A DNA stretch of 64,000 nucleotides from Styela clava (taxonomy: Eukaryota > Chordata > Ascidiacea > Stolidobranchia > Styelidae): assembly GCF_964204865.1 (NCBI RefSeq), contig NC_135254.1, forward strand, positions 18,357,001 through 18,421,000. The letters are read 5' to 3'. The translations under genes were made by a program, and so were the position numbers. Positions 21,998-64,000 of this stretch are shown piece by piece; within the stretch, counting starts at the first letter, position 1; each line of letters begins with the position of its first letter. The notes under the pieces are model-generated. The model did no database searches and was not told where the DNA came from. It saw nothing but the letters and a program-made list of their open reading frames with translations.

Positions 21998-22011
21998 GAT
22001 GTTTTAAGTAT

Positions 22012-40388: not shown

Positions 40389-40623
40389 ATATTGTTTTGC
40401 TTTATTTAAATATTTCATTTTGGAAAAAATATATAATATAAAATTAGCAGCTGTATACATGCAATTTTCGGTTTATTCGGGACAAAAATTGTCATTCCAT
40501 ATATTCTAGCTACTTCCCCAAATAATATTGACCTAATAGTTTGATTTAATTCCATATTTTTCTAGACTTCAAGTTTTGGGGAATTTTATTTTTATATCAA
40601 TCAGTAAGACAAAAAAAAATTCG

Positions 40624-42666
40624 ATGACGTCCACTGATGCTGAAAGGAAAGCTGACCATGCTGTGAATGTCATGCTATCAATGGAACAGATGAAAAATCG
40701 AGAATTTCTATGTGATTTCATAATAAACGTCGATAAATATTCGTTTAAAACTCACCGCGTTGTACTGGCTGCTTGCTCAAGTTATTTCAATGCCATGTTT
40801 TCAAGTAATATGAAAGAAGTTCGAGAGGGATCCGTCACTATGATGGACATTGAATCGGATGCAATGAGGAAATGTATTGAGTACATGTATGTCGGTGAAG
40901 TAGATATTTCGATGGAAGAGGTGGAAGATGTTTTGCATGTTTCAAAATTGATTCAGTTAGACGGATTATCCGAGGAATGTTTCAAATATTTACAAGAACA
41001 CCTTTCCGCCGATAACTGTTTGTCGTCAATGAGTTTATCTCAAATGTACGGTAGGGAAGACGTTTCAATTGTCATAGAAGAATATATTCGACAAAATTTA
41101 GAATTCGTTATTACAACCGAACTCTTCCCATACATAAATACGACTAGTCTGATGCGTTACGCTGAGACAACTACGAGTGGCTACTGGGTTTCGTGGAACG
41201 CTATCTCTACTTGGTTGCATCACAACGGAAATAAAGTCAAAGAAAGAGCGGACATGGAGAATGTTATGAAGTTTATGAATCCAGATGTTTTTCCGTTTGA
41301 ATTTCTGCTCAGTACGGTATTGAATGATTTATTTGTGCAAAATTGTGAACATGGTGTGGAGCTGTTACTTCACAACTTATTTTTTAACACACAAGCTTTG
41401 AAAGAAAATATTAGCATTAGCAATTGTTTTTTACTTCAAAGTCTGAGTTCATCACCACGACTAAATTCTTTAACATCCCTTTTAGCAGATGAAGTTATAA
41501 CTGATTTCATGGCTACGAATATTCATGAAATATCCAAAAAGCACGACTTCCTTTTAATGCCCAAAAGGACCGTTCAAAATATGTTTAACAATTTACACAG
41601 TAAAAATGCTCCCCAAGAGGTAATTTGGGACGCATTGACAAAGTGGGTCAAATTCACTGACGAAAGAAATTCATATTTCTCTGATTTATTTTGTTCAGTC
41701 AAGCTGCTTAATTTTACATACAGTTTTCTGAAGCAGACGGCTTTAGCTAATAACTTTGTACGCCAATCTCGGGATTGTCTGCAGCATATTTTACGGGCAA
41801 TATGTGAGCGTTCAATTAGTGGAGAACCCATGTCCCATATCGCCCTCTTGCAACAGGACACCACCGAAATTAAAACGTTCGAACTGTCGTGCAGAACTTG
41901 GGAAACAATGAACTCACTACCAGAAGGGGATTTTAAACGGATAATTTCCGTAGACAGAAAACTTTTTATTTTGAATGACGGACATTTTTCTTGTTATAAA
42001 AAAGATCATTGGATCCAGAGCACTAGTTTAAAACGAAGACGCCCGAGCCCCTGGGCGCAAATAACTACTTTCGGAAGTTTTATTTATGTTGTCGAAGGAA
42101 AATGCATGTCTTACTACGACACAGTTTTGGACTGCTGGGTGGAAGATTTACCTGGGTGCTCAATTGTTATGGGATTTTGTGTTTCTGCAAATCAAAGATA
42201 CATTTATGCTATTGGTGGCAAAAGCGCTAAAAGATATGAATCAAAAGAACACAAATGGAAATCAATTGCACCTTTACATATTGAACGATATGACGCTTCT
42301 GCAGCAGCTCTACAGGAGCGAATTTATGTAATGGGAGGAAATGTTTTTGGTAAAATTTTAAACTCCGCTGAATGTTATTCCCCCATAAACGATACTTGGG
42401 AAGTTATTCGGAATATGTTACTGCCGCGTTCTCATTTTAGCGCATTTGCAATAACTGATAAGTTGTACGCAGTCGGTGGAAATAGGAACGTAAATAATGA
42501 CGGTGATCAATCAGACTCCATCGAAATTTTTGATGCGTCATCTCAAAAATGGAAAATGTTGACTAAAATCCCAGAAACGAAAAGTCGAGTGCTAGCCTGC
42601 CATTACAGTCCTGATGAAGTCGAAGTAATTGAAGAGATTACAAGAATAATAGGTCTCATATCTTGA
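40624..42666 (+). CDS. BTB-BACK-Kelch (KLHL-like) protein, single exon
   Basis: One uninterrupted frame of 680 residues from the first ATG (MTSTDAERKADHAV). By family, such proteins are substrate adaptors of Cullin-3 ubiquitin ligases: BTB binds Cul3 and dimerises, and Kelch blades bind the substrate. BTB spans about 20-125 (CDFIINVDKYSFKTHRVVLAACSSYF, split here by position, then a MYVGEVDI stretch near 88-95). A BACK-like region follows at about 130-240, and a second at about 285-395 with WDALTKWVKF near 335. Five or six weak Kelch repeats span about 420-665: YAIGG (528), YVMGG (568) and YAVGG (615) mark the clearer blades, each with a W-x-x-I or W-x-M end. The first two blades are degenerate. 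Upstream in-frame codons to 40576 lack an ATG. A 5' UTR intron is possible. Confidence 0.93.
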   Translation: MTSTDAERKADHAVNVMLSMEQMKNREFLCDFIINVDKYSFKTHRVVLAACSSYFNAMFSSNMKEVREGSVTMMDIESDAMRKCIEYMYVGEVDISMEEVEDVLHVSKLIQLDGLSEECFKYLQEHLSADNCLSSMSLSQMYGREDVSIVIEEYIRQNLEFVITTELFPYINTTSLMRYAETTTSGYWVSWNAISTWLHHNGNKVKERADMENVMKFMNPDVFPFEFLLSTVLNDLFVQNCEHGVELLLHNLFFNTQALKENISISNCFLLQSLSSSPRLNSLTSLLADEVITDFMATNIHEISKKHDFLLMPKRTVQNMFNNLHSKNAPQEVIWDALTKWVKFTDERNSYFSDLFCSVKLLNFTYSFLKQTALANNFVRQSRDCLQHILRAICERSISGEPMSHIALLQQDTTEIKTFELSCRTWETMNSLPEGDFKRIISVDRKLFILNDGHFSCYKKDHWIQSTSLKRRRPSPWAQITTFGSFIYVVEGKCMSYYDTVLDCWVEDLPGCSIVMGFCVSANQRYIYAIGGKSAKRYESKEHKWKSIAPLHIERYDASAAALQERIYVMGGNVFGKILNSAECYSPINDTWEVIRNMLLPRSHFSAFAITDKLYAVGGNRNVNNDGDQSDSIEIFDASSQKWKMLTKIPETKSRVLACHYSPDEVEVIEEITRIIGLIS

Positions 42667-45600
42667 TATCAAATCGATATTAAATGCAAAATTAGGACGA
42701 AATTAACGCGGGCAAAATATTTCTATCTACAAGCGTAGCAGTATCTGGCGGTAAATTGGATAAAAATAAATTGTCTGGAAATAAGATATCTATCAATGTC
42801 CACTACGTGTATTGCTGGCATATAATTAGTGATACAAATATATTTTACTGAAAAAAAGAAATAGATTAAATGTTGATTATGATATATTAGTATGTTTATC
42901 GTATCCAAATAAAAAAATAACCGCATTTTTACCTAAACAATCCTTTAGGTAAATAGTAGAAGAATTGGTTGTATGACCTTTATTCTAAAAACTAATTTTT
43001 TTCGAAACAAAATTGACTTTTTTTGTATTTTATACAGTTTTCTACATATGTATATAACAAATTCAAAAAGTTGTTCAATTATAGCATAAATATTTTGAAG
43101 AAATAAATACTTCTAAATATCAGTTTATTGAGTTTATCGACTAATTTACTATTAAGTCGAGAAACTACCCGACATTTTTTGCCATGCTATAGAAGTTTTG
43201 AAAATCTGTGCACTTGGCGTATATATAATAAAACGCCTAAGTACCGAAAACTTGTTAAATCTTTAAATTTGGTTTAATTTTTCACAAAACTTTATACTTT
43301 GAAATTATCATAAACTAGTGGAATATTTTATAACTGACGGAATTGATTTGTATTTGAGATATTTTATTTGCATATTCTCAGCAAGCACAACAAAAGGCCA
43401 TGGTCAGGAACGTTCTATATGTTTTTGCGTATTGGGAATTGTTGAAATTAATTTCGCAGAAATGAAATTACTTGTGAGTTATTGCGCTTACATGGATCAC
43501 GTATTCAAGACTCTTTTGCAAGCCTGTGTTCTTTCATAACTGCGAAGGAGAATATCATATGTCCTGAAAATGGAATATTTATGTGCTATCACTTTTCATT
43601 TACCATATACGAGTGAAATCTAACACTATTTGATTGAACAGTACGACGTGTTTGTTATTATGAAATATAGATGACTTTACTATAGTATGCAACTAGACTA
43701 CCAGTCAAAACCAATTTCAGCTAAAAATTAAAATTAAAAAAAAGGTCACTGCGATGAAACTTATTATTTTCAATGATGTAAACTATTTTTTGGGCGCTAT
43801 TTCAAGATTCCATGACATTATTTTTTCCAAAAAACATTTAGCAAATTTATCAATTTTTCTGCACAGGTGGTTATTATCCAAGATGACAAATATTAGTCCC
43901 GAGTTAAACACGGCGCAAACTATATCACATTCTTACGTAGATTCGTCAAAATCCATGATTGACTGCTTATTAATTAGCAATACTTTGTGATTGATTACAT
44001 ATTTATCAAAAAAAAAGTAAAATAAGCATTTGCTTAGTATCAATCATTCGAAAGCCAAATATTTTTCAAATATTGAGTAGAATTTTTTTTTACAAATATG
44101 TACTCTTCTATGTCTAAATTTATTATCTCATATTTACCTGCTTTTTATCTGCATTTTTATTATATAGTATAATTTTTGTAAATATTTCCAATTTAATAAA
44201 AGGTTATAATAAACTGTTGTTTTAAATATTGGAAAAATTAAATTATCAGTTTTCATTTTACAAATATATCACCGTTTGTCGAACATTTTAGAATGATAGT
44301 AAATATTTTAGTAGAGATCAGTAGTGTGGTGATTTTGACGCAAAATATAATTAATTAATTGCACCGGAGTCTAAAATGAGATTTGACAGACAAATCTGGT
44401 GTCTTTCGAGTTACTTTGAATCAGAATTCATAGTTAATCCGCTGTCGGAATTTTATATTGAAAATAGCTCGAAAATTCTTGTTTTGGAAAATGAAATAAT
44501 GGACAATCAGATTTGTTTGGTAGAATAGAAGCTTCATCCGATTCAGTCGATCGTCTACCTGCCACTCAAAAACCGATTACAGTTTGACAAACATATAGAT
44601 TTGGGATTGGAAAAATTGCCGCCGACTTTTTTAAATATTCTTCAATTCGGATTCTTGGTTTGAGTAAAAATGGCCATGACATGATTCTTATGACGGTCTA
44701 ATTTGGTACCAAAAGAGAATATTGGTACTCAAAAAACAAAAAAGAATAAGTCTTTTTAACATGACTAAAGCAAATTTAATAAAATTTTGAATTACCAAAT
44801 GTCCAACAGTACTGTGTAAGTTTTTGTTTATAATGATCTCATAAATTAGTGTAATGGAAACCGCCATGTTTGTATATGGTGTTAAAGCTATATACTCGGG
44901 AAATAACAAGTTCCACCGAAAAGTTTTGGACTTAGCAAAATGTAAAAGAACGAATGTGTTAACACTCTTGATAACTTTGTAAATCGCAATAAGACGCAAC
45001 CGGTACTGGTCTACTGATACTGGAGTGTAGGCAATAAAGCTCTACCTGATCCATACATTAGATATTCGATCCATACTTATAATGAGCACGATCGATTTGT
45101 GAGAAAAAGGGATTTAATTAAAGTGCTCCCCATAGTCCGTAAAATACGGTAATATTTATTCTACTTACAACTTCCAACATTCCGCCTGTATGTTATGAAT
45201 TTTTTGTGAATTAGAATTTTACCTCTTCTCGACCGACCTCATTTGTTAGTGTTGGTTTGAAGTTATATTATGGCCTGAAACATTCCATTTGTTATTTCCG
45301 ATTATACCATCACATTGTGTCGTGTCTTGGAATTTTTGTGGCATGACTTCATGAACTTTTTTGAATCCGAATTACGGAAAACTAATTTTACGCACTTATT
45401 TCATTCGGTAAGGAGAAGTATGGAAATCTTGAGATGGTACCGGCAGTTGGAAGTAAGAATTCTTGTTATCCACATTAATTTAAGTTGCCAAGAGAATTAC
45501 CGAGAACTCGTTATATACAGATAGATGTGGCAGCTTGTTTTAAATACAGGAAAATAGCCTGGAGAACCCAGATTTTCATTTTCAGACTAGGTTTCCATAT

Positions 45601-46221
45601 GGGCATGAGCCCCAAAAATTTGAACAATAGCGATTGTAATGAAAGTCAAATAATGTAGTTGGCACAAATGCGTTGAATGGAATGCATGCAAGTACCAAGA
45701 GACAAGAAAGAGACAAGAATAAATATAGGTAGAATACAGCTCGAATCTTGAAGAAGGAAATTCACAATGGAAATCGTGGCACTTTCAAGGAGTCTGCTTC
45801 ATCGTAGTCATAGTTGTAGTCAAACACGACCCTCTAGTTTATTGATCAAACTTCAATTTACTCTGTTTCTGTGACACTTTTTTTGTAGACTCTATTTAGG
45901 ACTTTTTTGTTGTAAAAGTCCGTCCTTTGAAAGCTACATAAGCAGGAACTTCACACATACAGTTTGTTTCTACAAAGCATTTTCTAACTAGTCACTATGA
46001 CATTTGTGAACGATCAGAGATGCTAGGTTTTAAATGATTACTTCTTACTAACGATATATATGTATATGACGCCGATTGTGCACAAGCCAAGTTTTGGCAC
46101 ACAAACGCGAAACGTATATGAAACAGTAAGTAATCAAGATTGACTTCTTAAAAATTCATATATATATTAAACTGAAGCATACAAAAATATATGAAAGAGA
46201 TGTAATATATATAGTAATTCT
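42667..46221. other. AT-rich intergenic stretch, no gene seen
   Basis: Likely 3' UTR of the BTB-Kelch gene at the left (AATAAA near 42908). Several open frames (43318-43539, 44688-44999, 45315-45524) lack motifs and most lack an ATG start. Confidence 0.4.
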
Positions 46222-49105
46222 TCAAACTATCACAACAGGACGTTTACAGCATTGTCTGTGCGTTTTTGGTGACTTTCTATGTCCTTTTTTATGCAACGGA
46301 AGGCTCACAGGAAAAGATCCGGGACCTGTAGCTGGTGGATTCTTTCCTTCCGTATATGGGTGGGGCCGGATGTGGAAGATTCGTGTTGTTGATTGCGTTC
46401 GATTTCGTTTGTGCTTGTCTCGAGGATGGGGGTCTTGCTGTCGGTTTGAGGGCTTCACTCGGAACTCCACTTTTGTCACCCCTTCTGGGTAAGCACTTGG
46501 TGTCGGTGCTTGGAATACGGGAGATGACGTTCGGGACTAAAAAATGTTTGCATTTCTGATTGGAAAACAATTGGAATACCAAATTTTTCGATAAATTTAT
46601 AAATGTAAGTTCACTTCAACTTTTTCTGCTAATATTGCTATTTGTGTCATATTTGTTAATTTGTATAAACTATGGGGATTCTCAGTATATGAAGTGAATA
46701 TTATCTTCATTTTTATTATCTAGTCTTACCAATGCCTACCGCTGGTCCTTCTCCGTATGGAGTGTGGCCAAATCTCGTGTGCTTCACCATTCCTTGGAAT
46801 TTTTCTGGTACCTCTGGTGGCCATTTATAAGATTTACGTTGAATTGTCCATTGTTTAAATTTTATCTCAGGTTCTTTTCGTTGTACAGGAGCTGCGAGTG
46901 AAAAGGAATAATAACCGTAAATAAGCTTTGACTTGTTTTCGTTTTTTTGACTGTTATTTGTCATTTCTCAGTTATAGGAGTATGTCATAAATTTATGTAC
47001 AAATCAAATAACCTAGAAGGTATTTTGTCTCTGGGAGAGTCTGAATCGAGAAAAAGTTCGGAGGCAAGTGGTTGAAGATTTTGATTTAATATGGCAGATT
47101 TGTGCATGCCACCAATTCGTAAACGCAAATTCGTGAAAAAGCGCATTCAAATTTTAAATAATATTGCTATGTCAAAGGTTGTGAAAGCATCTATTGTATG
47201 GAATCTTACTTGATTAAAAAATAATTTAAACTGAATTCAAGCTTTGTTTTAGTTGTATTTCTGGGGTTTTATTCTATCAATTTGGAACATTGTTGATATT
47301 TTTGTCAAAGGTAAATGTAAACCAACCTCCGGGATCAGCGGGAGCCATATATCTCTTGAGTAATGATATATCATGTTGGCACGTGAAGTTAGTTCGCCCT
47401 TAAATATGAAAAATATATCTTAGCTATAGCAATCATTCCGAGCCGAAAATGTCCATGTGCAGTACATTGCTTATAGCATACAAACCACCTTACGTTGCTT
47501 AATTTACAATACATTAGGTTACGATAAATCAAATCTGAAAAGGTTCAAGGGTACTTTGTAGCAATGGATTGAATATAGCGATGATTGTAACTTGAGAAGT
47601 TTGTCTATAAACGGCCGTGTTTTGCAAATATGTGTTATCAAAGTTTTTTCCTCAAATCGGTGTGACACGGTTAGTCAGTAATACTGAAATTCTAGACCAT
47701 AAGGTATGTCTATTTAAAGAGGGTGATCCGATACTGAGCATGTCGCACATCCAATTTTTGGCAACAGTAATTTTAGTAATTATTAGTAATATGTTATCAA
47801 CTAAATTTGAATGTATTTTATCTATTTCTCAAAAGAATATTCGTACTATCTTTTGTTTATCAAAATATCCTGAACTTGGTGCAGCGATGGCGACTGAATC
47901 ATACGTCCCGTTTGTGTTAAACGGAAATAGACAGATGTAGTCAAAATATTTTAATTCTCTGCTGCACTGCTAAAACGTAACCAGACCGCCTTTCCGGAAC
48001 AAGCAAGAAGCTTGTAAGGTGACTGTCTTCATGTGCAGCATTGAAACAAGAATGCCTTTATTTTGTTGAAATCAGACTAGAAACTAGAAGAAGGACAGGA
48101 ATTTTGTGTCTTGGTCGAATGGTGATTATAATCTCGTATTTGGACAAAATTGAAATTAATTGTTTTTATTTGGTGGAGCATTAGACAAAATTTTTTGTAC
48201 AGTTTTTATGTTAGATGGAATAGAGAGAGATCTCCATAACCGCGGAAAACCAGGGCAAGAAATACTCACTTAAATGTGGGAGAGTTTGTTCGCATCTCAT
48301 CACAGGCATCATTTGGTTTGGATTCCATATTCCAAATACCTATAAAATAATATTGTAGTTAGGAGCAAGAATTAAATTTGTTCCTAGCTGACAATGCGCT
48401 GTTGCATCGGGATAGTATAGCTAGGTATCCCCCATATTGTATACCAAAGTGAAAAGTAAGTTTTGGGTAGAGCTGAAGTTATGGTGACAACACTCTTATC
48501 AGCATCGCATTTTATTGCTCGAGTGCTTCAGATAAGCGAATTTAAGCATATGAAATATTATTTTTTTTCGAGGTGTTTTTTTTATCACACGTGCCAAATC
48601 AGACAGTTGCAGGAATTGACCCACTAAATTAGTTAGATCGTGTCACAAAATATAGGCTTGTTTCAATATAGAGATATTCTAGTACATATTTTCTTTTCTT
48701 TTTATTTTTTCTTAATTTTATTGGTATGAAACTGAGATAGACAAAAGACAGCAAAAACAATGGTTTGAGGAAAGTTTTCCAATTTATAGATTATAGTTTA
48801 AACTTGTGGTTATAGTCGCGCAGCTTAAAGGAATACTTTAGGCTACTGTTGTTCAGCAAAGCTTGACACCTCATTGTTATATACAATAGACTCACGTTAT
48901 TATATCTGTTATAAGGACTCTGATAAACCAGACCGATTGGTTGGGGATTCTGTCGCCTTGTTGGTGATAGTATTCTCGTTATCTCTGGTCCTTTATCTTT
49001 ATTTAGCGATATGTTGAGTTGTCTTAATGCTTGACTTCGATATCCAAAATCACCCAATGTAGTAGAACGAGGTATCTTACTTCTTTTAGTAAAGACGTTT
49101 GCCAT
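46222..49105 (-). CDS. Unrecognised small basic protein, five exons
   Basis: Exons on the minus strand: 49105-48896, 48339-48270, 47398-47327 and 46891-46730 join in phase with GT-AG ends, starting MANVFTKRSKIPRSTTLGDF. A last exon near 46.2-46.5 kb is ambiguous. An acceptor before 46508 gives a frame ending at 46222 (266 residues in total, containing GPGSFPVSLPLHKKG). One before 46536 gives 253 residues, and one before 46555 gives 197. The product is rich in Arg, Lys, Pro, Tyr and Trp, with phrases such as IGLVYQSPYNRYNN, KQWTIQRKSYKWPPE and TRFGHTPYGEGPAVGI. I see no signal peptide or membrane segment. The style recalls short proteins of ciliary or sperm microtubule lumens, but I recognise no specific family, so function is open. 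Confidence 0.72.
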
Positions 49106-49987
49106 TGTTTAATGACTTCCTAGGCAGATTTCTGTATAATCAGAGACCAAAAATTTCTATGATATCTTCGTTTTGCTAGTTTGGTAAACGGTACAAATTG
49201 AGTTGCCATTGTAACCAAATAAAAATTCGCATTGTCTCGTAATTTCGTCCCTTTTTGACCGAAAAAATGGAATTTGCTTTAGATACGTAACGTATGTTTG
49301 CCATTTAATAAATAAATAATATATATTGCCCTATAACTCGATTCCTTTTATGCGAATATATATTTTAAATAAAAATACTAACATTGCTATAAATTTGGGG
49401 TGACCTATTCATTGTGAATTACAATTTGTTGCATTTGAATTTTTGAAACAAATATTTTATTGAAAAAATCATTATAGATAATTAAATTATATTTATTTAT
49501 GACATATTGCCACACGTAATCAATTATTAACGACATGTGATTTATTTAGCTACGTGACGGCGTCTGAAAATACCCGCCTAGAGGTTGCCATCTCTGTTTG
49601 CAACTGCAAAATAGAACTTTCTACAGTTATGGTTGATTAATATATCTTCATTAATATTGCTATTTTATTTTATTTTTCTATACCAACAATACCTTTTACT
49701 TGATTGTACTTTATTTTTATGGTAGTGTTGTTTTGTGATAGGGCCTGTCATCTGAATTCATAATAACTATTTTATTTTTCGAATATCATTTACTCGATAT
49801 TGTACTATTGTAAAATTGTACCTTGCTTATTGAATTGGGAAATAAACCTAATGATACACTAATTAAACACCTAACTTAAATTCTCTGTGTATTTAACAAT
49901 ACGTAGATCTGACTAATTCTTTCACATTAAAAATCTTGAGACTATAAATCTCGAATGTAAATGCTCTTGTTAATAAATAGGCGTTGT
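49106..49987. other. Intergenic between two oppositely oriented genes
   Basis: AT-rich, no coding exon. It presumably includes the promoter of the minus-strand five-exon gene, which starts at 49105. Confidence 0.4.
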
Positions 49988-50347
49988 TCATTGAAACCGA
50001 CAGTCTCCCGTGGCGAACCTGTGTCTACATGGCCTGAGCAAATATAATTTGCCATTTAACAACGATTTGTGGTATTGTTTGACATATGAAAGCAAACAAT
50101 TATTTGTCTGAATGTTAGAATCTTGGGCTGTTGAAAAGTACGCAATTATTGGGTTGCTTTTTTGCGTTGTGCAAATTGTAGGGTATAAAATTAGAAAATT
50201 TATACAAGGCTTATTTTCGAGAAACGTACTGTTTGAAGCAATTTGTGTAGCAAGTTCGAGTGTAATGCTTAATGCATCACCAAGGGTGTGACATAAATTT
50301 TCTAAAAATTCCAACGTTGTCCTGAGCAGTACAAGACTTCTACGCAA
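49988..50347 (-). CDS. Possible isolated terminal exon, unrecognised
   Basis: A 119-codon frame on the minus strand starts after a plausible acceptor (TGAGCTTTAG near 50360) with RRSLVLLRTTLEFLENLCHT and ends at a TGA. Composition is protein-like, with helical leucine-rich text at the start, but there is no ATG and I found no upstream exon in phase on that strand. It could be a remnant or a chance frame. Confidence 0.25.
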   Translation of the reverse strand: MRRSLVLLRTTLEFLENLCHTLGDALSITLELATQIASNSTFLENKPCINFLILYPTICTTQKSNPIIAYFSTAQDSNIQTNNCLLSYVKQYHKSLLNGKLYLLRPCRHRFATGDCRFQ

Positions 50348-51417
50348 AAACTCTAAAGCTCATATTTACAGATAAAATTGAAACAAAATTCAGGTCCTAC
50401 TTCACAAAAATCTTCATTTCACATTGTGCAAAAGTACATCTTCGAAAAATGAAAAAAAAGTCAAATGAGTGAATGGTCGAGTAGTATTGGCAAGTGTTAT
50501 AAATTGCAATAAATTTAATCATATTTTGATCATTGCCAAAGACTGATATAAACATTGGGTTAGCTATTCAAAATAAAATGTTACGCAAAAGACTTAATGT
50601 AATGGAATATGTCCAACAAAAATAAATGAAAAATCACCAAAATCATACTCACTAGGACTCCTTATGTGAAAGCGTCCTAAAATCGCCTAACTTTATTTTC
50701 GAAATGCCTTTGCGTTTCTTTCTTGAAAATATTTCTTAATAATGAAGTCGAATGCATGGTCGTTAAATGAAATTTATCTAGGATTGAATTTTATAAGCTT
50801 TGATTGTTACATCATAATTCGATTTATGGCTCAATCATTTAATATGGTACAAACAATTCTAAATCCCTTAAAAACTCGTGTATAATAAGCTATGCAAAAC
50901 CTTAGATGATTTTAAGTGGGCATTTGTACAACTTCCGTGGAGCGAATATATCTATCGATTATTCAACCTTCAAAATTGTAGATTCAAAAAATAAATTTAA
51001 ACTCTTAGTATATTGCTGTTCTAACAAATTTCCATATGGAACCGAAGCTTATGCGTACGATAGGCAGCATAAGATTCTCAACTGTTAGAAGTTCCGAAGC
51101 ATTCCGAAGAACAGTGATTGACTTTTCAATGCCTTAGTCGCCAATGTAGATAATGATTTTGAAAATAGTTTTGCTTGGTTTCACTTTTATGTCCAATTTT
51201 TCTTTCATCGTTTCAACACATGTTTTATTAGACCTAAAATTCATAGATATTATATAGTATGATGTCAAATGCCATTTTAAAGTGCTTCCGAGTAAAGCAC
51301 GGAAACATTAACTTTACAGTGTTGATTTTTCAGATTATCTCACAAATATAATTTCAAATGTTGTGTTTCTCAAAATGGTAACAAGTGTGTATTACTGGAA
51401 GATATCATTATTTCGGA
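50348..51417. other. Region upstream of the Shisa-like gene
   Basis: No coding exon is supported. A second ATG with a hydrophobic leader occurs at 51153 (MILKIVLLGFTFMS), but its only in-frame donor (GTTTTA) is weak, so I prefer the start at 51418. Confidence 0.4.
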
Positions 51418-54400
51418 ATGTTACTTAAATTGATCATTTTGAATCTGTTTTTATTTTCATGCGTTAGCTGCAACACGGTATTTATATGTCTTGTTTATCT
51501 TCAAAATTAGAATATTACGACGTGAAATATTCTATTTATTATTTTAGGATTCTGACTTGTGCGCAGTTTACCGCGATGGAACAATATACAATTTCAACTG
51601 TGATGGTAAGAGACACTGGCGATTACATCATACAATTTCATTTACAAATATTGGGTATTTTTTAACCTAGTTATTATTGGTTGATGGTAGCTTAGATAAG
51701 CCGACTCACTTTTGAACCGTTACCCAAGCCACTATTTTATTGAAACCTATCGTAAAAAATGCTAAGTAATAATCATAGATTATAATTCATCTAGACATAT
51801 ATAACAAATACCCAATTTGTTCAGGAAATAACATGGAATACCGTGTTGCTCCTTCTCCAAACGCTGGGTCCCACTAAATATACTTAACAACAGAATAGAT
51901 CGGCGCCTGCTATTGAATTTAGTTTTCTATATTCACAATTTTGTAATAAAACAGTTTCTCTTCCTCGATTATTACTTCCAGCAATATAAATTACGTATTT
52001 TTTGAAAAAATTTGATAGTTGGTCATCATTATTTTGGTTTATTTTATATTTTCAAAAACAGGTGGGTACTGTTGTGAAGAAAATACATCGGGATGCTGTT
52101 TATATGATACTGAGATCGGAGTTAGCACAATTTGTAAGTTTTGAATATATTGGTGCTGATATTATCTTCATATAATTAAATATTCCACAATTTCGTTGTA
52201 TTTTGTATGTGCAAAAGGCGCACAATAATTACCATGTCCATCTTCCATTTTATCCAACGGACAGGTGGGTGTTTTACGGAAATATTTTTATATCGAAAAG
52301 ATCGTGTTTTTGCGTCGATTTAGTTTCTCTAAAAACATTTATTGTGGAATTTAAGTTGCTTTTATAAGTGCATGTGGGCAACACTCTTAATTAAGCTTAG
52401 CGAATCAGCATCATTAACAAAGGTGCATTATATTTAATAAAGGTATTCAAAATATCTCTATTTTCTCGCCAGTAAAACAGCCTCGAAATGATGCTGGTTA
52501 CGGCTTCCATGTAGCTCAAACCATTTTATCTGACAATATACTGTCTTCATGTATACATGAAACTTTATTTAAACACTATCTTTGTGCACTGTGTAGATCA
52601 CCAATGCAAGTCCATCATACATGAATGCCACTGTTAACCTTAAAATTAGTGGTAATCTCAATTTAAATCAACGTTTGCGGTGCTCTTCTTTTGTATGATA
52701 CATGATAGATTCCATATCTTGTCCTATAGTATAAGCAGCTAGGCAGTTTCTTTATACGAACCACCTTTATCGTCTTGATCAAGTTATAGATTGGAAATTC
52801 TAAAATACTTCATACCACCTAATTTTGTATTTCAGGGCTTGTTGTTGGAATAGTTTTTGCTGTTTTCCTACTGTTGACTCTTATCGGAATATGTTGTTAC
52901 TATTTATCCCGAAGTTCCTTTTGTCGGTGGTTGTCGTGGTCAACTTCATACTCTTCGACGCATATACGACCTCTGATTCTCGGGTCAAAAAGTAATGAAT
53001 CAGAACTGTCGAGTTCCGCTGAAAAAGATAACCAAGTTTGTTGGAATATATGATATATCCCTTTATTTGGAAATAATATTAGTAGTCGTTTGACGAGCAT
53101 CACAGCAATAATTGCATCCGTATAGCGCCGTCCATTATTTATATTTGACTTTACTAAATACCAAAGTGAATCTTTACAATAAATTAAGTTTTACAATACC
53201 ATACACTTGACAGATTCTTAAACTGATATATCAGCTAATATTACAGAATATTTGTTAAATATTTAAAAATAATATTGAACTCCCTGAATCCGAGTTCTAG
53301 TTGTGATTAATAAACAGTTAAAACCATATCCCTTCACATCATCTAAGGATTGGGAAATAGGTTTATCGTAGCCAAACAAAATAAGTTCTCAGTACAACTC
53401 CGTATCTGTTCACTCAGACTCTTTGTTACGATATCACGCTTTATGAAATCATGTGTACAAGTAATTATTTTACCAGGATGTTTGGCGATAATTTAGTCAA
53501 TCACATATACGAAATATATGTATATATATAAACAATGAAATCTTTATGTAACGATGATATTTTGAAATCATGTTTCTGTACACAGGAAGCCGTATACGAA
53601 GAAATAAACGGCTCAGACTCCTTTACTTCGACTATATCAACGACCACAACGACAGAAGATGATTTAACCGCAGACAAAATGTCATGTTGTCCTACCCTCG
53701 ACTGTTTATGTCCTTGCCCATCATTGCCCAGTTTTGATTGGCTGACAAAAAAGAAAACTCGCAAGTCACTACCTTGGGATGACGAAGAGGCCATGATGAT
53801 TCCAGGTTCTAAGGGACGACGTAGAATGGGCAGGTCAGGAAAATCTATTATAGATGGGATTACGCTTGAAAAAACAGAGTAGGCACAATGCTCAGTTATG
53901 AGTTTTGTAGAACTGTTCTCATATGCTATATACATTGATGATAAACGGTATTCAATTCACTTAGTTTTGTCGTGTCATCAACTGATTTGTTCAGTATGCT
54001 CTGGTATTTGCGATTGTTCTCAATAAGAAACCGACTTGAGTATATGTTAGTTAGGATTTAGAATTTTATAGGCTCTGAAGATACAAGCGTATTATAACTA
54101 ACATAATATATTAAGAAAATAAGTGAACCTCGCAAACCTCAATGTCGCTCAATCTTTGACTTGATTGATTGCTTTTTCAATCGCATTACAGAGTTTTTGG
54201 ATGCAAAAAAATGATGTTTATCCAACATGCCTACAATATGTTTGTTTTAAGTTATTGTTGGGAACATTACAAAGCAATATAGTGATTTTTAGTAAATCTT
54301 AAAACTTGGCCCAATATCTAGATTTTGAGTATCAAATCAAAACAATCCTTACGAACCTTAGTTCTCCAAAATCAGGAATTTTTTTCAGACCAATCCACTG

Positions 54401-56359
54401 GGTTGGATCATCTCCAGCACAAGCAAAACCACCCCACCCGACGAAGATCAAAAAACTTCGATCACTGCAGAACGTGCCTGTAAAGTCGTTTCTACAAGAA
54501 CCAAAATGGAAAAGATCAAAAAGAAGTAAAAAAAGACGCAGAAGAATAAAACAACTGAGAAAAAGAAGCCACGACGATATGAGCGTTCAAAGCCAGAGAA
54601 TCGAAAATCGTTATTATCAATTCAAAGGGTAATTACAAGATGCAGTAATTTCTAAGTTCTTTATAAGACTAGTTAGATTTTTTACATTTCCTTCGAGTAT
54701 TATTTAATTTACCTTTGAAGATTCATTAAAGATTGTCTTCAAGGTCCAGGGAACCTTCTGGCACTCACGTTACGTAAATATAAATCCCAGTTTCCCAGTT
54801 AGCAATTACTGTTTCTAGAAAAAAAAAATTGTGATTATTCCAACAAGCAATTGTGGAATTTTCATATACGCTTATATCGATTTATGTAGAATTTTATATT
54901 ACTTCAATATTATTAATTAATTTTGCACAGAGTCGAATCCAAAAAATTGTCTATGTCCGAAAGCAACTTGTTCGAATTCAAACGAGAAGGTGGACCGATA
55001 GAAATTATAACTGGGGAAAGAATTCCTAATCAATCAAACCAAATTCCAGATGAGTGGGCGCACGTAATGATGCAAGTAAGAATACATTATAGTTGTAAAA
55101 TTAGGCGTTTTATGCAAAAGTATGCGTCAGTGTCACTAGAGCAAATCGTTTTTAAGCAGCCTGATAAAAAATACATTTGCATTGACCACACTATGAAACA
55201 ATGTACGGTACATTTTTTTGTCGTGAGAATTAGATCAGGGTTCAAAGTCTTCTTTTTAGTAAATTTGTCATCGCTTCCCGTCGAAGAAGTTTTTTTTTCA
55301 AAATTAAACAAAATTCGATGATTTAGTCGCTCAATATATTATTTCCGACAATGACTATATTTTATTGGACTCGTCTTCAAGAAATTTCGTAAACACCTTT
55401 GGTTAGTATTTTGAACTAAGTGGTTTGCATTTTAAATTGTTAGAATTGCTGTTGAAATCAAACTGTGAATAGCATAAGACCAATACATACACCTTAGTGG
55501 AATAGTTCACGTAGAACACTGATTAAATTATCAATATAGATATCAAATTTATTTACATTGTTCTCAGCTCAAAGCCGTCGATGGCGGAGAGAACAAGTAC
55601 AAATGGCTGGAGAAACATTACGGTAGGCATTACCGCCCACGTCGGCGAACAACTTGCCTTGATTCTAGGCAAGCTGATCGCATAGTTCAGACGCTCAGCG
55701 CTTCAGGAAAACGCCGTAAGAAGAAACGACTGTCAGGACCGCCTAAAGTAAGTTTTGGAAAGCGCAGAAAATCTACGAAAAAATATTATTCGGAAGGATA
55801 TGCATCCCCCAATGAAAGTTCTGAATATTCAAACTTGCCTCCTCCACCGCCTTCGATGTTAAGCAATCATGGATTTCCCGCCGCCGATGCCAATTTAGCC
55901 GGAATAGAATCATCATTTGCTGACGTTCTTACGCAGTCATCATCCGACGAAGACGATACACTGCATGGCCGTAAAAGGAATACTTGGTACAATATGTTAA
56001 TGCCATCCCCAAGAAGTAGTCCATCTTCAGAAGAACTGCCTGGCATGATATCGGAAGCAAGTTCAATTGTAGATTTTCATACTCCTAGAGATCAAATTAG
56101 TAACCCTGAGTCTCCGACACAGGACCCATCATTCTCGAGATTAAGACCACATTCGGGATCCTTAAATTCAAATCAATCTGTGGATACACGTGCTCTCGGA
56201 CTGTTAGATATAGGTGTATGGATGACAGAGCAAATTTTAAAAGAAGAAGATGACAGAAACGAAATTAAAGAAGGCAACGAAGAAACTGAAAATATGTCAA
56301 CACCAGCTCGACCTGATATTGTAATTGTGAGTGATATTGATGACCAAAACAAGGAGTAG
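51418..56359 (+). CDS. Shisa/CYYR1-like single-pass membrane protein with long tail, eight exons
   Basis: Exons 51418-51477, 51548-51605, 52062-52133, 52836-53035, 53586-53833, 54389-54628, 54931-55075 and 55568-56359 join in phase to 604 residues. The first is a clean signal peptide (MLLKLIILNLFLFSCVSCNT). The short ectodomain has exactly six cysteines in the order C, C, CC, CC (25, 38, 43-44, 51-52) and one NTS glycosylation site. A membrane helix spans 64-88 (WLVVGIVFAVFLLLTLIGI). This is the layout of the Shisa-like group (Shisa, CYYR1, WBP1, VOPP1), trafficking or signalling adaptors. The tail is about 515 residues, far longer than CYYR1: VYEEI at 133, a cysteine cluster CCPTLDCLCPCP at 164-175, a strongly basic stretch near 252-273, another near 385-410, LPPPPPS, and serine/acidic runs. 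The exon 4 donor (CAA-GTTTGT) is weak; reading through gives a stop at 53054 and a short form ending QVCWNI. Confidence 0.8.
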
Positions 56360-59215
56360 TGTGTTTTGAGGTGCTGTCACAATCACACTCTAGTACATGT
56401 TAAATCCGTTGCAATTGTTTTCAACCTATCTATTGGAGCAAAACGATCGATAGAACTTGTTCGATTTTGCAATTTGATCTTTGACAAGCAAAATGAATAG
56501 ATATTTTTGTCATTCAAATCTCTAATTTTTAATAAGCAGGGGCAAAAATAACATTTAAGAGACCATAATTTCAGAGTAGTTTTTCTCTTATCCCAGTAAA
56601 TTCCTCTTTTTTTATGATGTTCTAAAAGTTTCAATTCATTCGATAATAACATTTAACCTTGATTTGATTTAGTACTTTCCAATTCAATATTTATATCTGG
56701 CCATGTACAAACTCATTTTAGTAGTAGGAAAAATGTAAACTTCTCACTTTCAATTTTTATTCCCATCTTCCCACTGGTTAGGAACCCCTGTCTCAATTAT
56801 TCGATGATACACCTGCTTATACATTTTTTACCACTGTAATGTGCAAAATATTATCTACATGAAATATCAATTGTAAAAATCCCCTTTATCATGCGATTGG
56901 TAACTATGTGACTGAGGAAAGATTTCAGGCCCAGGAAACTAAACAAAGGATTGCCGGAAATCAGATCTGCCAAACTTTATTATTTGATACAAAAACTTGC
57001 TTGCCATTTATTTCCACGGTGCTATTTGTATTTTTAGTGTAAAATGGTCAAGAGCAATTGTCCATATATAAGGTATATCCAATATGATTGGCAATAATTT
57101 TTATTAAAGAGTTTTCAATTTAAATGTATGCGGTATTTTATTCTTTGTGTATAAATATTACAAACATTGTTGCCGTGTTACTTCTCAATGTCTTAGTATT
57201 TTAGAATTGACTCAATGCGTCGCGATATTTTCAAGACCATAAACCAAGGTACGCAAATACACCAAATTTAAATGATCGCATCGCAATGTCAGCAATATTC
57301 TAATCGAATGTAGGAACAAAAGTTACTGAAAGCTATAGAAAGGTGTGTCACGAATTATAAAAAACAACATGTTGTAGAATGAAATGTCGGACTCATATAC
57401 TACTCCAGTAAGTCTTTCAGGCGACACACTGAAGAGTTGGAACTTAAAACCCGAGTCGCGACTCATCAGTTGACGCCCGAACAAGCAGGAGAACAAGTCC
57501 AGTCGAGCTATTGCACATTTCATAAGCAACAGGCAAATACATACGACATGCTAAAACTACATGAAACCTCACTACTTATCTAATAATGACCGCGTTTATT
57601 TTGGCATGAATATGACATTTTCTGGGTTATAACTTATTACTAATGTAGATTAGCGGTATTTTGTTTTTTCAATACGACACTGAGCGGAGTAGAGTAGTAA
57701 ACCCTATTTCACCACAAAAGCTTTTCCATTTTTTTAAGTTTTAGTTATATTTTAGTTATAACAAAATGTATTTACAAATGAGTCACCTCTATAGATTTTA
57801 TAGGCAACTTATATTATTTGCAAATTATTTCGTGTAGTTTTTGAAGTTATTAGTCTCTGATGTATTGTTATACAAAAAACTACCAATAATTCCATACTAA
57901 TGCGAATGCGAACAATGGTTATTTTTTGAGATAGGCAGAGACGTGACGAAGACAACTATTGATTACACGATAATTTTCTTATATGACTTAAATATGAAAT
58001 CTGTTCGTTAAAATATGTTCAATATCAACATAGTATTTCATCCAATCAATAACATAATATCGCCAGGTGGCGGGAGAGAGCAATTTTCAAATGCTCAATA
58101 TCTCATTAGTTTGTAGATTTTGCGAACGTCAAATAATGTATAGGACTTGCATGAATAGAATATAAATGATTGAATCGCAAAACCAAAGCATACTAAAATG
58201 TCATTTCCTGTTCTATAGCTCTTGCTGTTTCCATTTAGTTAATTTGTATATGGAGTAACGCATATGATGAGATTGATCAATACGAAGTTAAAAGTACTTA
58301 GAATTACAAGACAAATTACCACAAAGTAATGCAATAAACCGCTGAAATGATATAGATATGATTCGAATTAAATCGCCCTTTATGAAAATTTTAACTGTGT
58401 GAAAATGTTGATTGTGACAGCGTTTTTTCCCCTTGCAGATATTTTATATCTTTTCTCAACAACCATTTGCAATACTCGACTGGAAGTCCAACCCAATACT
58501 CAATGATAACGATTTGTTGAATAATCACCGGCTGCGTCACAACTAATATATAAATTGATTTGTACAGTATGAGAATTGACCCATTTTTTGACAATCAGCA
58601 ATTTAATGACACTAAACCCCGGGAAAACAGTTGTTGCAAAGATGAATTCTCCGATTCCCTGACATAATATTGCCACTATTACCATGGTGCAGGGCAATAC
58701 CTCAAAACATTGAACTATGGATACACACTCAACAAAAGAATATTGAGTTTCATGACTGATTTCTCCTTTATTAGTGTTACCCCCTATGAATTAGAAGCGT
58801 AATACGAAACGTTCAATAAACAAAACGATGGCCAGCAAATGACGTCTGAAACTAATGAAATTATTGTTTCCTGGTTTGTAAAGGCGCAAGTAACTTGTCT
58901 CTTGTAAACACCTTTTGTCTGCAATGTGATTTTATTAGTGTCCGTTTAGTTATCAAAGTATTTATTGTTCGTATGATGACGGTTTTGAAAAAAAATGTTC
59001 GACCTTCACAGTTAATAATTCACTGTTGGTTCAACAATCAACTGATGTTGTGAAAGCCAAGTTTTATTTTTAGTCTCTTTGTGGATTCACGAAATTAACT
59101 TTTTTTCCCATTTTGAAAATTGTGAGTAAGCGCTATCAAACCAACTAGTTATTGAAAGCAACCTTAAGTTTCTGTCTGAAAGAAGTCTTCATTTATTCAT
59201 TAATATTTTATAGGC

Positions 59216-59515
59216 ATGTCACAGTGCCTAAATGTCGTAACAACCAAGTTCGTAAAATCCGAGATACTTGTTTTTGATTTCGTTGAGGTATATACGAATA
59301 TCATCAACACATTTGTAAGTTTAACTAAGTGTTGTGTTGAATTACAGAAGCTTACCTCACTTTTAAAGAGAACTGTCTTGTGCGTCAACTGCGATCGATG
59401 GAGAAGACATTTGCGGCAGATTGTATGCCGATATTATAGATACACTGACGCAATTCGAAATGTAGTGTTTATATATTATGAGAAAGACTACTTTACATCG
59501 AATATTCTCCTTTGA
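59216..59515 (+). CDS. Weak candidate small open frame, 99 codons
   Basis: ATG directly follows a TTTTATAG acceptor-like string. The frame runs MSQCLNVVTTKFVKSEIL to a TGA and includes a Cys/Arg-rich part (LCVNCDRWRRHLRQIVCRYY). A strong donor-like GTAAGT and an acceptor-like TTACAG lie 33 bases apart in frame, which is too short for a usual intron. No family recognised; it may be noncoding. Confidence 0.25.
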   Translation: MSQCLNVVTTKFVKSEILVFDFVEVYTNIINTFVSLTKCCVELQKLTSLLKRTVLCVNCDRWRRHLRQIVCRYYRYTDAIRNVVFIYYEKDYFTSNILL

Positions 59516-62191
59516 AACGAAATGTCGAGTTAAAAAGGGCGCTAGGACAGATGTAATATATAATCAATTTTATACAAAAATATGAAAAAATCTATGAACA
59601 CTTTGCATGTCAGTTCAAATAATTTCTAGATATGCTAGGCTTTAGAGAACCCAATGTCAGAACTTAAATTTGCGAAAAAAATAATTTGTACTCATTGCAC
59701 GATATAAATGATTGTGATTATCAAACTTAGCTTCAAATCACTTCTTTAGTAAATATAATTTAGAAGAGAACTTAATGATAATAAATTAATTAACTTAAGC
59801 GCTACTCGAGGAGGCTTAAACAATCGAAAGTGAAATTCAGTTCAGTGAAACAAAGAAACAACATCTTGAAGTGACTCAAACCCTAATGCGTTGAAAGATA
59901 ACCTAATTTGACATTTCCTTCAACCATTTCCCAAAGGGAAACAGATCGTGTAAAAAATCAGTAATTTTATACTTCAGTGCATTGATACGAAGCTTGTGCC
60001 AAGAAATTGTTTTTAAAGCACAAGTTATCTGTATCCAAATCAAATAATATGTTTATATTCACAGCATACTTCATTATCAGTGAGGACTATTTTATCGCTC
60101 TTCAGATTATTAACTGTAAAACTCCAATCAAAGTTGCTGATTTTTTAATAGAAACCCCCACTCTTAGCTAAGATGTTGTCGCGCATTGATTCGGGGAATG
60201 AGAATACACAAACGTTATGATTAAATTGAGAAATTCTTCAGAATTGAGTAACTATTATTCGAGGGGATTTCAAACGCTTCAAAAGCTTTCTTCAAAAGGC
60301 GGTTTTTAAGATATATAATCGCGACGCTCAAGCGATAGGAACAAGGAAGAAGAATTTGTTTACAAGTTTGATCGAAGTAAAATAAGTTTTGTTTGATTTT
60401 ATAGTAGAATGATAATTTTTTTGCCTATTTTAACGTTTTTTTCAAATCACAATTACCGTGTTTTGAACGAGTTGATTGAAGATCTTATTTACAAGATTTT
60501 TAGTCGTCAGGTCATGAATATGCAGAACAATAGTTGGTTAATAGTTTTAATTATGATGTATTGACAGAAGTAACTGGTAACGAAACAAAAATTATCTTAT
60601 CATCAAGTGGTGAACGTGCGCTTTTGTCATTCCCGTACAAAAATGAAAAATTTAAAACTTACAAATATTTTCAACTCCTAAGCACATTTTTAAAATAATG
60701 AGTTAATCAATAATAAAATTGATCTTTTGTAACACTCTTTATAAACGGCCCAGTTTCAAGGAAAACCTCATTCATGTAATATCACCAGAATATTAATATT
60801 GAGTCACACTTTAAGAGGGGAAATTCGTTTGAACTGCAAATACAAGTTAACAAATGCGTTTTACTTTCATCTATATAGTTATTGCCTTATTCCGCCTTTT
60901 TATTTACTTCTCCCCATCTGTAAGTACGTCTTTTATAGAAATAATCGAAAGATATAATACTGCTAAGGCATAACAAATATTATGTCTAAAAAAATAAACT
61001 AATTGTGGGTTCTCTTAATCTTTTATCTCATCAAAACGAGATATAAAATCATATTTTAGCAGCAAATTATACTAAAAAATCTCCTATCCAAGTGGACATT
61101 GTTGGAAGATTTCAATAATATGCAATTTCGTTGAATGATAACATAATAAATATAATAGTTATATGCATTTCAAGTTTTAACTATGAAGATTCAAATCGAA
61201 CTATTTTAATCAATTGTATCGATTACTTCATAACTGGAGCAATTAGGCCAATACAACATTGCAATTAAAGGTGTTTTCCTCATTTAATGGAGCATTAACA
61301 AAATGAAAAATGTATTTGTTTATCTTTGTATAATAATATGCAACGCAAACATCTTATAAATCAGGTTACAATTGCAACCAATCATGAAACTATGGAGCTA
61401 AGACAGTGGCTTGAAACCTTCTTTTTTTTTTAATTACTCCTTCGCGTATTTTGGAACTCTTATTCCCCCCTCACTTTGCATAAAACTATATTATTTGTCA
61501 ACTATTCAATGGATAACTCACGGGTGTTATGCGCATGTTCCCACTTTTGTACAGTTTAAGTAGTTTATACGTAAGTCTAAACAAGTATATTAGTAATAGT
61601 GTAATTATTCATAAGAACTGGAAATCATTGGTAATACTATAGCAAACAAGAAGCACAATTCCTCCTCATGAAACACAAAATTCCTGATGAGAAATTACCC
61701 ATCGTTAGGAAACGTGGAGCTAAGCTTTAAATAAGCAGTATATATTTTATTTGTAGTTTGGGTGAAATAGATGAAAATTACCAAGATGACGTTCCAAACG
61801 AGAGTCGACATAAATATAATCGTCATAAAATATCCCTTCAACAGTATGAGGCGTGCCTTTTTTTCTCTCACTCACTTCTCTCTAATATCTTATCATAAAT
61901 CCCTTACATGTGACGACGAATTGTAGTCGGTTGTCGATAACTCGATGGGGATGTAGTTGTCCGTCGGGTCGAGCCCGGTCAACCGTGAGCTGTTGTACAA
62001 TTGGTCCACGCTTAAACATGTTTTTCTTTAGCATGCTACATCGTATTAGTAGAAAGTAGACTCAGCTGCAAAATATAATCAAATTTCTAATCTTTTATAG
62101 CAAAATGTCAAATTGGGTAAATTGAGAACTCTGTAAGGTCGTTTTGCAATTTCAATTCTGTAATTACTCGAAAACCAGCGAAGGACAAAGT

Positions 62192-62319
62192 ATATTTTTA
62201 GTGATCTACATGTGCTTTCCACAAGCTGTTCATGGATATGGATTTACAAAATGTCACGACTCGAAATACAGGATATGTTCCTCTTTCGGAACTGGACTAC
62301 ATTGTAATAGATTCAAAGG
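62192..62319 (+). CDS. Weak candidate phase 1-1 exon, cysteine-containing
   Basis: Between an acceptor-like TTTTTAG and a donor-like AAAG-GTCAGA lies an open segment with CFPQAVHGYGF, KCHDSKYRIC and GLHCN. Four cysteines in about 30 residues and symmetric phase 1 ends would fit a secreted-domain exon, but no partner exon was found up to the window edge. Confidence 0.2.
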
Positions 62320-64000
62320 TCAGATAGATCGTATATATTATAACTCTTCCTGATCAATTTCAATAGCCTTTTTTGTAACCGACAATCAGTTTTGTTTCAC
62401 TATATAATTATGTATAATCATAAATATAATTAATTAAACGCTGGATAATGCCGGTGTTTCATACCTTCACATTGAATAATGAGATCAGACAATTAACCAA
62501 TGGTATGGCTCATCTGTGTTTATGGGCTGGAATACTTCAGGTTTTGCATTTTACGAAACCAATTTAATACATCTGAAAAAGGTGGCAAACATAGAATATC
62601 AATCAGATATTTTAATACCTTTAAAGTCAAACAGTTAAAATTTTATATATGCACTATCCATTAGGCCAGTTGAAAAATATTCATTTCCCGCATGAATAGT
62701 TCGATAATTATGTAGCTGTTTTATGTCATAAAAGCTGTATCTTTGTACAAACAAGAGGCTTTCCAACTTGAGTAAACGACACGGAACACAAGTAGCGTTA
62801 AGAAAATATGAGCCCAATCATTATATTTCAAAATATTTAATTTAACGGAACCAAGATCTTGTTAGGCAGCAATGTTTGTTACAAGGAAATAGATAACATG
62901 TAATCCATGCTACATGTATTCAGTTTGGAATTTATTCGTCGACTTTTTCAAATACATATATGTTTTCAAATACTATGTGTCTGTCCAATTGAAAAGTATA
63001 TCGAAGACACACTAAAAGTTGCTAGTTTAGTCACAGAAGTACAGTTTATTTTGTGCGTTCAAGTTATGTAAGAAACAATTCCGAGTGTTCAAATTTCGAT
63101 AACAGATATATAATAAACACTTGGTATAAAGGGTGCTAAACAAACAAATGTTGTGAAGCTTATTTTGTGCTTTGTCAAAGCTGGTTCCATGACTAATGCA
63201 TTGAGTTACTACATTTATTAAATACAATCTGTGTCAAATAGGACTGAACTTTGACGAATATTTTTTATATAAACGCCACGAAAAAAGATTGATCCTTCTT
63301 TAAACTGCAAGCTCCAAGAATATCCTGTAATATGATTATATGATTCCATAATTATATCTATATCGACATATGTAGCAACCGGTCGATGCAGAATTTAAAC
63401 AAAGATTGTCCAGCAACGTCTCCCACAAATTAAAATGCAATTATACTCAGCTGTACAAACTATCTGCAGCAATGAAATGCAGAATTTATTACCATTTTGC
63501 CAGACCGTCGCCCCAGCATAAATTACGTAAAAAGACTCCGTGAGAAAAGAGTGTCGAATTTATTTATTATATAATTTTAATTTTAATACTGATGCACGAG
63601 ACGTTTCTTGTTTATTCATTTTAGGTTATGGTATTTGTTGAGGACAACATCTCCGTTTTTTCATCAGCACTTACTATTAAACTATATAAGTGTAAATGTT
63701 ATAGTTTGTAAAGATTTTTTGTGATATGTTAATAAACACATGTAAATGTAATTCAATTCGAACTATAAGCGTTTGAGGAAAAATCTTTGGATTAAAAAAC
63801 TCATGCTTCTATCATTTTAAAATAAATTGGATGATTCGTATATAAATTAATTATATAAATTAAGTAGTACACGAGTTACGCCGTAAAATGGCATTCAATT
63901 TTTTTTTTCAAATACCAAATGTGACGTGATGCTTATGTTTATAATACAACAAGCGTAGACTCATCTCTTTTGTTGACGTAAAATTTCCTATCTATGGAAT

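Follow-up and report, generated by a model that had tools for sequence, protein, structure and literature searches.

Do positions 51418 to 56359 of a Styela clava chromosomal stretch encode a single membrane protein with a very long cytoplasmic tail, or two proteins from neighbouring genes? The question arises within a window of 64,000 nucleotides (nt) from NCBI RefSeq assembly GCF_964204865.1 (contig NC_135254.1, positions 18,357,001 to 18,421,000 of the forward strand; coordinates below are those of the window). There, a preliminary description had proposed a Shisa/CYYR1-like receptor-type adaptor assembled from eight exons, with a cysteine-rich ectodomain, one membrane helix and a modular tail. 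We find that the eight exons form one open frame and that exons 1-4, encoding the head, and exons 5-8, encoding most of the tail, are probably joined in one transcript, a judgement that draws on splice sites, reading frames and crude odds. The head is probably a remote relative of the Shisa-like (STMC6) proteins of the WBP1/CYYR1 kind and not a strict Shisa, as far as can be told from its sequence.

An eight-exon gene model with one open frame

The gene model (51418-56359, plus strand) joins eight exons into one uninterrupted frame of 604 residues terminating at a TAG (56357-56359), with an in-frame stop at 51379, 39 nt 5' of the start codon. All seven introns are of the GT-AG type and span 70-702 nt. 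The proposed exon structure is confirmed as an open spliced frame, with the joint between exons 4 and 5 no more than probable from sequence alone. Splice sites were scored with a generic matrix, and their ranks weigh more than their scores. By rank, six of the seven acceptors fall within the top 3.5% of AG sites, the exon 6 acceptor (top 12.9%) being the exception; donors 2, 5, 6 and 7 fall within the top 2.8% of sites, while donors 1, 3 and 4 are mediocre (11.2, 9.7 and 13.9%). The exons are:

51418..51477, plus strand: exon 1, start codon and presumed signal peptide (MLLKLIILNLFLFSCVSCNT); donor ACG/GTATTT, top 11.2%
51548..51605, plus strand: exon 2, ectodomain cysteines 1 and 2; acceptor top 0.6%, donor top 0.9%
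52062..52133, plus strand: exon 3, CC-x6-CC of the cysteine module; donor top 9.7%
52836..53035, plus strand: exon 4, IW pair (I from exon 3), putative transmembrane helix, juxtamembrane CCYY and start of the cytoplasmic tail
53586..53833, plus strand: exon 5, tyrosine motif (YEEI) and clustered cysteines CCPTLDCLCPCP; acceptor top 1.7%, donor top 0.7%
54389..54628, plus strand: exon 6, first basic block (KWKRSKRSKKRRRRIKQLRKR); acceptor top 12.9%
54931..55075, plus strand: exon 7, tail
55568..56359, plus strand: exon 8, second basic block, PPPPP, acidic/serine-rich stretch, possible C-terminal helix and stop codon

Frame length was judged against 300 sequences of equal length simulated with a third-order Markov model (plus strand; 95% level 125 codons, maximum 145). 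The frame containing exon 8 (278 codons from stop to stop) exceeds the longest plus-strand frame in every one of these simulations, which places the 3' end of the gene model beyond chance, while the frames containing exons 5, 6 and 7 (116, 109 and 134 codons) lie inside the simulated range. Codon scores were obtained with frequencies trained on the window's Kelch gene and calmodulin-like exon, a small set that limits the weight of the scores, and were compared with stop-free windows from 43000-51000 and 57000-64000. Exon 4 scores 0.05 per codon, above the maximum (0.03) of 562 non-coding windows of 65 codons, and for exon 7 the score is 0.19, while none of 1,207 windows of 50 codons exceeds 0.13. 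The opening third of exon 5 also reaches 0.19, to be set against a 95% level of 0.05 and a maximum of 0.23 among 3,932 windows; exon 8 scores 0.07, a value that stands without a null of matching length.

Other parts of the model lack such a signal, and this counts against it. The score of exon 1 is -0.18, without coding support; exons 2 and 3 score 0.05 each, below the 95% level of 0.11 for 17 codons; and neither exon 6 (-0.15) nor the remainder of exon 5 (-0.02) rises above background. Over exon 5, moreover, an antisense frame scores nearly the same as the sense frame (0.04 versus 0.06 per codon). This frame (53501-53956, minus strand) has 151 codons, more than the simulated plus-strand maximum of 145, and both its length and the exon 5 comparison speak against dismissing it. 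Its best Pfam match has an E value of 0.16 and its codon score as a whole is -0.04 per codon. Because the acceptor and donor of exon 5 on the plus strand are good, we take it to be probably a shadow frame.

The head resembles STMC6 proteins of the WBP1/CYYR1 kind

Residues 19-62 of the predicted protein hold exactly six cysteines, as had been proposed, spaced C-x12-C-x4-CC-x6-CC and followed by IW (spacing taken by reading the sequence); two further cysteines lie inside the presumed signal peptide. This C*C*CC*CC order is the one reported for the majority of STMC6 proteins (PMC5578492). Hydropathy peaks at residue 65, with a 19-residue mean of 3.04, and nothing past residue 90 exceeds 0.82, so that apart from the N-terminus (1.89, the hydrophobicity from which a signal peptide, looked for in STMC6 members, is presumed) there is one helix-grade stretch. 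The single membrane helix of the preliminary description thus holds up, and a single transmembrane segment is likewise an STMC6 trait. A further trait given for the group is an aromatic pair (WY, WF or IW) adjoining the membrane segment (PMC6125347), and here the segment begins STIWLVVG. The trait that is missing lies in the tail: neither PPxY nor LPxY occurs anywhere in the 604 residues, whereas STMC6 tails are typically rich in proline and usually carry such motifs. They are not universal in the group, given that the CKAMP proteins are described as carrying PDZ ligands instead (PMC4733035). Membership in STMC6 is therefore probable and not settled, and the absent tail motif is why we use no stronger label than STMC6-like.

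Profile searches against 24,736 Pfam models point the same way. When the 135-residue short form that results if exon 4 is read through into intron 4 was used as the query, the two best models were WBP-1 (E 0.0021, 19.1 bits) and CYYR1 (E 0.12, 13.2 bits), and the same two led for the bare head (WBP-1 E 0.035, 15.2 bits; CYYR1 E 0.062, 14.1 bits). In a control in which every cysteine was kept in place and the remaining residues were shuffled within segments (n=10), one shuffle of the ten reached these families (CYYR1 E 1.8, WBP-1 E 6). Since the shuffles mostly lose both families, the likeness is probably real but remote. Several observations temper this assignment. All matches to WBP-1 and CYYR1 fall below the Pfam curated cut-offs (28.1 and 31 bits); the full 604 residues again give WBP-1 as the best model, more weakly (E 0.014, 16.4 bits), with CYYR1 unlisted; the unrelated TMIE model (E 0.22) stands barely behind CYYR1 for the short form; and among the shuffled decoys unrelated families appear at E values as low as 0.03, so that 0.0021 is not overwhelming. 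A profile match to the cysteine module, which the preliminary description had named as a check on itself, thus came out in between: the matches are present, and they are sub-threshold.

The comparison with individual families separates what is shared from what is not. The WBP-1 match (PF11669, the family of WBP1 and WBP1L) covers residues 37-89, spanning CC-x6-CC and the membrane segment; the Styela protein differs from these relatives in falling below the family cut-off and in being without PPxY, and its tail is longer than that of WBP1. CYYR1 (PF10873) is the second-best match of the short form and shares a single membrane segment placed after the cysteine module. CYYR1 is described as a protein of 154 residues with a CCSYYAY box and three PPPY motifs (PMC1863428), in place of which the Styela protein has CCLYDTE and no PPxY. 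From Shisa proper the head is set apart by its cysteines, the zebrafish Shisa ectodomain being given as C*C*CC*C*CC*C (PMC10531659), eight cysteines against the six found here. No Shisa model appeared among the Pfam listings at E values up to 10, a range in which the HMMER filters drop many weak matches. The Shisa/CYYR1-like label originally given to the protein is hence retained for the WBP1/CYYR1 side, by profile, and abandoned for strict Shisa, whose cysteine pattern differs. Searches of NCBIfam with the short form, the antisense frame and exon 8 gave two weak matches, both bacterial and both to the short form (the better at E 0.007, residues 4-33), which we disregarded.

A long tail without PPxY

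The tail comprises 518 residues after the membrane segment, close to the 515 or so that had been estimated, and 474 of them are encoded by exons 5-8. The modules attributed to it are all present: a single YEEI, of the Src-SH2 type, at residues 134-137 (residues 4-7 of exon 5), the cysteine cluster CCPTLDCLCPCP, two basic blocks and a PPPPP run at 432-436, to which can be added a CCYY next to the membrane segment on its cytoplasmic side. Proline makes up 7.3% of the tail, with this one PPPPP run. The 474 residues from exons 5-8 match no Pfam family, and comparison of the whole protein with solved structures in the PDB gave one chance-level match (E 0.48). With exon 8 alone as the query, and not the head, viral contigs yielded 4 pattern matches and prokaryote genome contigs 26, none of them confirmed; with a gene from an animal, both searches had little prospect of success. 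A single-sequence fold prediction for exon 8 (263 residues) gave short helices and one longer helix near the C-terminus, at a mean predicted local distance difference test (pLDDT) score of 54.6, with 122 residues below 50 and 44 between 70 and 90. As the prediction was made without an alignment, these low values are weak evidence that the region may be disordered.

How unusual would such a tail be? The CKAMP names correspond one to one to Shisa6-9. These proteins resemble the Styela protein in their single membrane segment, cysteine-rich ectodomain and large intracellular domain, and they are given as 399-541 residues long, whereas the Shisas in the same comparison have 197-295 (PMC4733035). 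The rarity of long tails among Shisa-like proteins had accordingly been overstated, and a long tail alone is already known in the superfamily. The CKAMP proteins differ in having an eight-cysteine knot and a C-terminal EVTV PDZ ligand (PMC4733035), where the Styela protein has six cysteines and ends in DDQNKE. As far as the cited literature goes, a WBP1/CYYR1-type head that carries a long tail and lacks PPxY is unusual; no such protein is named in the family titles and abstract openings among the matches listed, although this speaks only weakly for its absence.

Is the tail joined to the head?

The model is most exposed at the joint between exons 4 and 5. The exon 4 donor (CAA/GTTTGT, 53036) is the weakest of the seven, in the top 13.9% only, and it is one of 5 of the 48 GTs in 52837-53585 that score -0.6 or better. 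If this donor is left unused, exon 4 reads five codons further (VCWNI) to a stop at 53051-53053. Both features invite a reading of the locus as two adjacent genes, or as a pair resembling an operon. The upstream gene would consist of exons 1-4, end at 53053 and produce a 135-residue STMC6-like protein with a 49-residue tail; exons 5-8 would separately encode a cytoplasmic or nuclear basic protein from one of two starts, the first of them followed by a 125-nt intron:

53443..53460, plus strand: rival first exon for exons 5-8, MKSCVQ, donor CAA/GTAATT at 53461
53535..53585, plus strand: rival unspliced start for exons 5-8, MKSLCNDDILKSCFCTQ; GC content 0.27, codon score -0.03

The first start has some appeal, since its donor at 53461 scores 1.4, as against -0.6 for the exon 4 donor, and an in-frame ATG upstream supplies MKSCVQ in the right phase. 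It is also the 135-residue form that yields the best profile scores, AATAAA/ATTAAA signals occur at 53178 and 53309 (two more are found in intron 3, however), and the basic blocks may resemble nuclear signals. Synonymous-codon scores are of opposite sign, +6.1 bits for exons 1-4 and -12.4 bits for exons 5-8; given the small training set these carry little weight, yet they do not help the case for joining.

What disfavours separate genes is, among other things, their spacing and their starts. A gap of about 390-480 nt would be unusual if genes here are spaced as they appear to be, with no frame longer than 123 codons in the flanks (43000-51400 and 56400-64000), where genes made of short exons could nevertheless lie. 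The 53535 start is in sequence of 27% GC without coding signal that ends at a top-1.7% acceptor, and the 135-residue protein would itself be without PPxY or LPxY. We also computed joining odds from the information in the sites and from length densities, with introns assumed to outnumber gene ends 7:1 and mean gene spacings assumed to be 1-7 kb. By these crude odds, which depend on the chosen priors, joining is ahead of two genes by 0.4-2.8 bits for the 53443 start and by 4.7-7.0 bits for the 53535 start. A third candidate, in which exon 5 begins at its own in-frame ATG (53679), is unlikely: another ATG, out of frame, lies ahead of it at 53659, and the part of the exon that precedes it has the look of coding sequence. 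On balance we regard two genes as possible and the less probable arrangement. If they exist, the locus holds merely a short, divergent STMC6-like gene next to an uncharacterised basic protein.

The same weak donor can be accommodated within a single gene, as alternative splicing in which intron 4 is either retained, giving 135 residues, or removed, giving 604. This overlaps with the joined transcript that we prefer. A weak donor right before an in-frame stop is the expected look of a regulated choice, although chance alone would also supply donors as weak as this one, at the frequency of GTs given above; such regulation we consider unlikely. The joined transcript has one parallel in its placement of motifs, in that the YEEI begins three residues past the exon 4/5 junction and, in human CYYR1, the first PPPY likewise starts just beyond the exon 3/4 junction (PMC1863428).

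What a joined protein might do

The chances that the locus encodes a joined, STMC6-like membrane adaptor are, in our estimate from the sequence, about even, any contact with Src-family kinases being left out of this figure. Within STMC6, members of the WBP1/CYYR1/VOPP1 branch are described as PPxY adaptors for WW-domain ligases (PMC11399591). Because PPxY, the contact of its CYYR1 kin with WW-domain ligases, is absent from the Styela protein, an adaptor role, if there is one, must rest on something else.

The reading that we prefer is a type I, single-pass membrane protein of a metazoan, belonging to the STMC6 group with WBP1/CYYR1 nearest by profile, and with all eight exons joined. In a further and less certain step, its ectodomain and membrane segment would associate with a second membrane receptor, as other members do. 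Palmitoylated cysteines beside the membrane segment and in exon 5 could, together with the basic blocks, hold parts of the flexible tail to the membrane, and Tyr134 of EAVYEEI, once phosphorylated, might dock the SH2 domain of a Src-family kinase. Phosphorylated YEEI is reported to be a high-affinity ligand of the Src SH2 domain (PMC2888578). The protein would then scaffold in the manner of Cbp/PAG, rather than recruit NEDD4-type ligases by PPxY; Cbp/PAG is palmitoyl-anchored and its phosphorylated form binds the c-Src SH2 domain (PMC3968143). The likeness to Cbp/PAG concerns the proposed working only, that of a lipid-anchored scaffold whose phosphotyrosine docks Src-family SH2 domains, and no homology is claimed; the Styela protein differs by its cysteine-rich ectodomain and its single YEEI. 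Speaking against the scheme, YEEI is a lone short motif chosen after the fact, and we hold the sequence of receptor pairing, palmitoylated tail and Src docking, drawn by analogy, to be doubtful.

Somewhat better placed, and still tentative, is an explanation that competes with the Src step alone. Here the STMC6 adaptor would control the trafficking or degradation of a partner receptor through other tail contacts, and YEEI would be incidental. Relatives act in this way, CYYR1 being reported to recruit WWP1 at late endosomes (PMC11399591) and Shisas to keep Frizzled and FGF receptors off the surface (PMC5578492), but the Styela protein has no PPxY or LPxY for WW-domain binding.

Should the Src-docking scheme be correct, a PPxY-less member with a cysteine-rich long tail of phosphotyrosine type would couple the same head to a different signalling machine. 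In its fullest version, the PPxY/ubiquitin-ligase tail would have been replaced by a long, doubly membrane-anchored phosphotyrosine scaffold linking a Shisa-like head to Src-family kinases, possibly alongside a short PPxY-less form made by intron 4 retention; we think this improbable.

Other features of the window

When the window was searched for further copies of the protein, only its own exons and one chance match (E 4.9) at 2109-2201 came up, and scans with Rfam (gathering threshold) and for tRNAs found nothing in the window. The two sequences used for codon training lie upstream: a BTB-BACK-Kelch gene in one uninterrupted frame of 708 codons from stop to stop (40540-42666, plus strand), and a calmodulin-like exon with three EF-hand stretches (12963-13349, plus strand), presumably somewhat diverged from textbook calmodulin. 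A frame at 26767-27147 (plus strand), which we take to look like the start of an SLC22-type transporter, has a sub-threshold alpha-2-MRAP_N match (E 0.0003) as its only Pfam match. The fragment at 3467-3895 (plus strand) presumably resembles a mariner transposase, with no Pfam match under E 0.1. A 952-codon frame at 19145-22003 (minus strand) encodes endonuclease and reverse transcriptase domains of the long interspersed nuclear element type (Pfam RVT_1 E 3e-32, Exo_endo_phos 6.7e-10), and 4939-5190 (plus strand) consists of a tandem pair of 124-nt copies with 96% matches.

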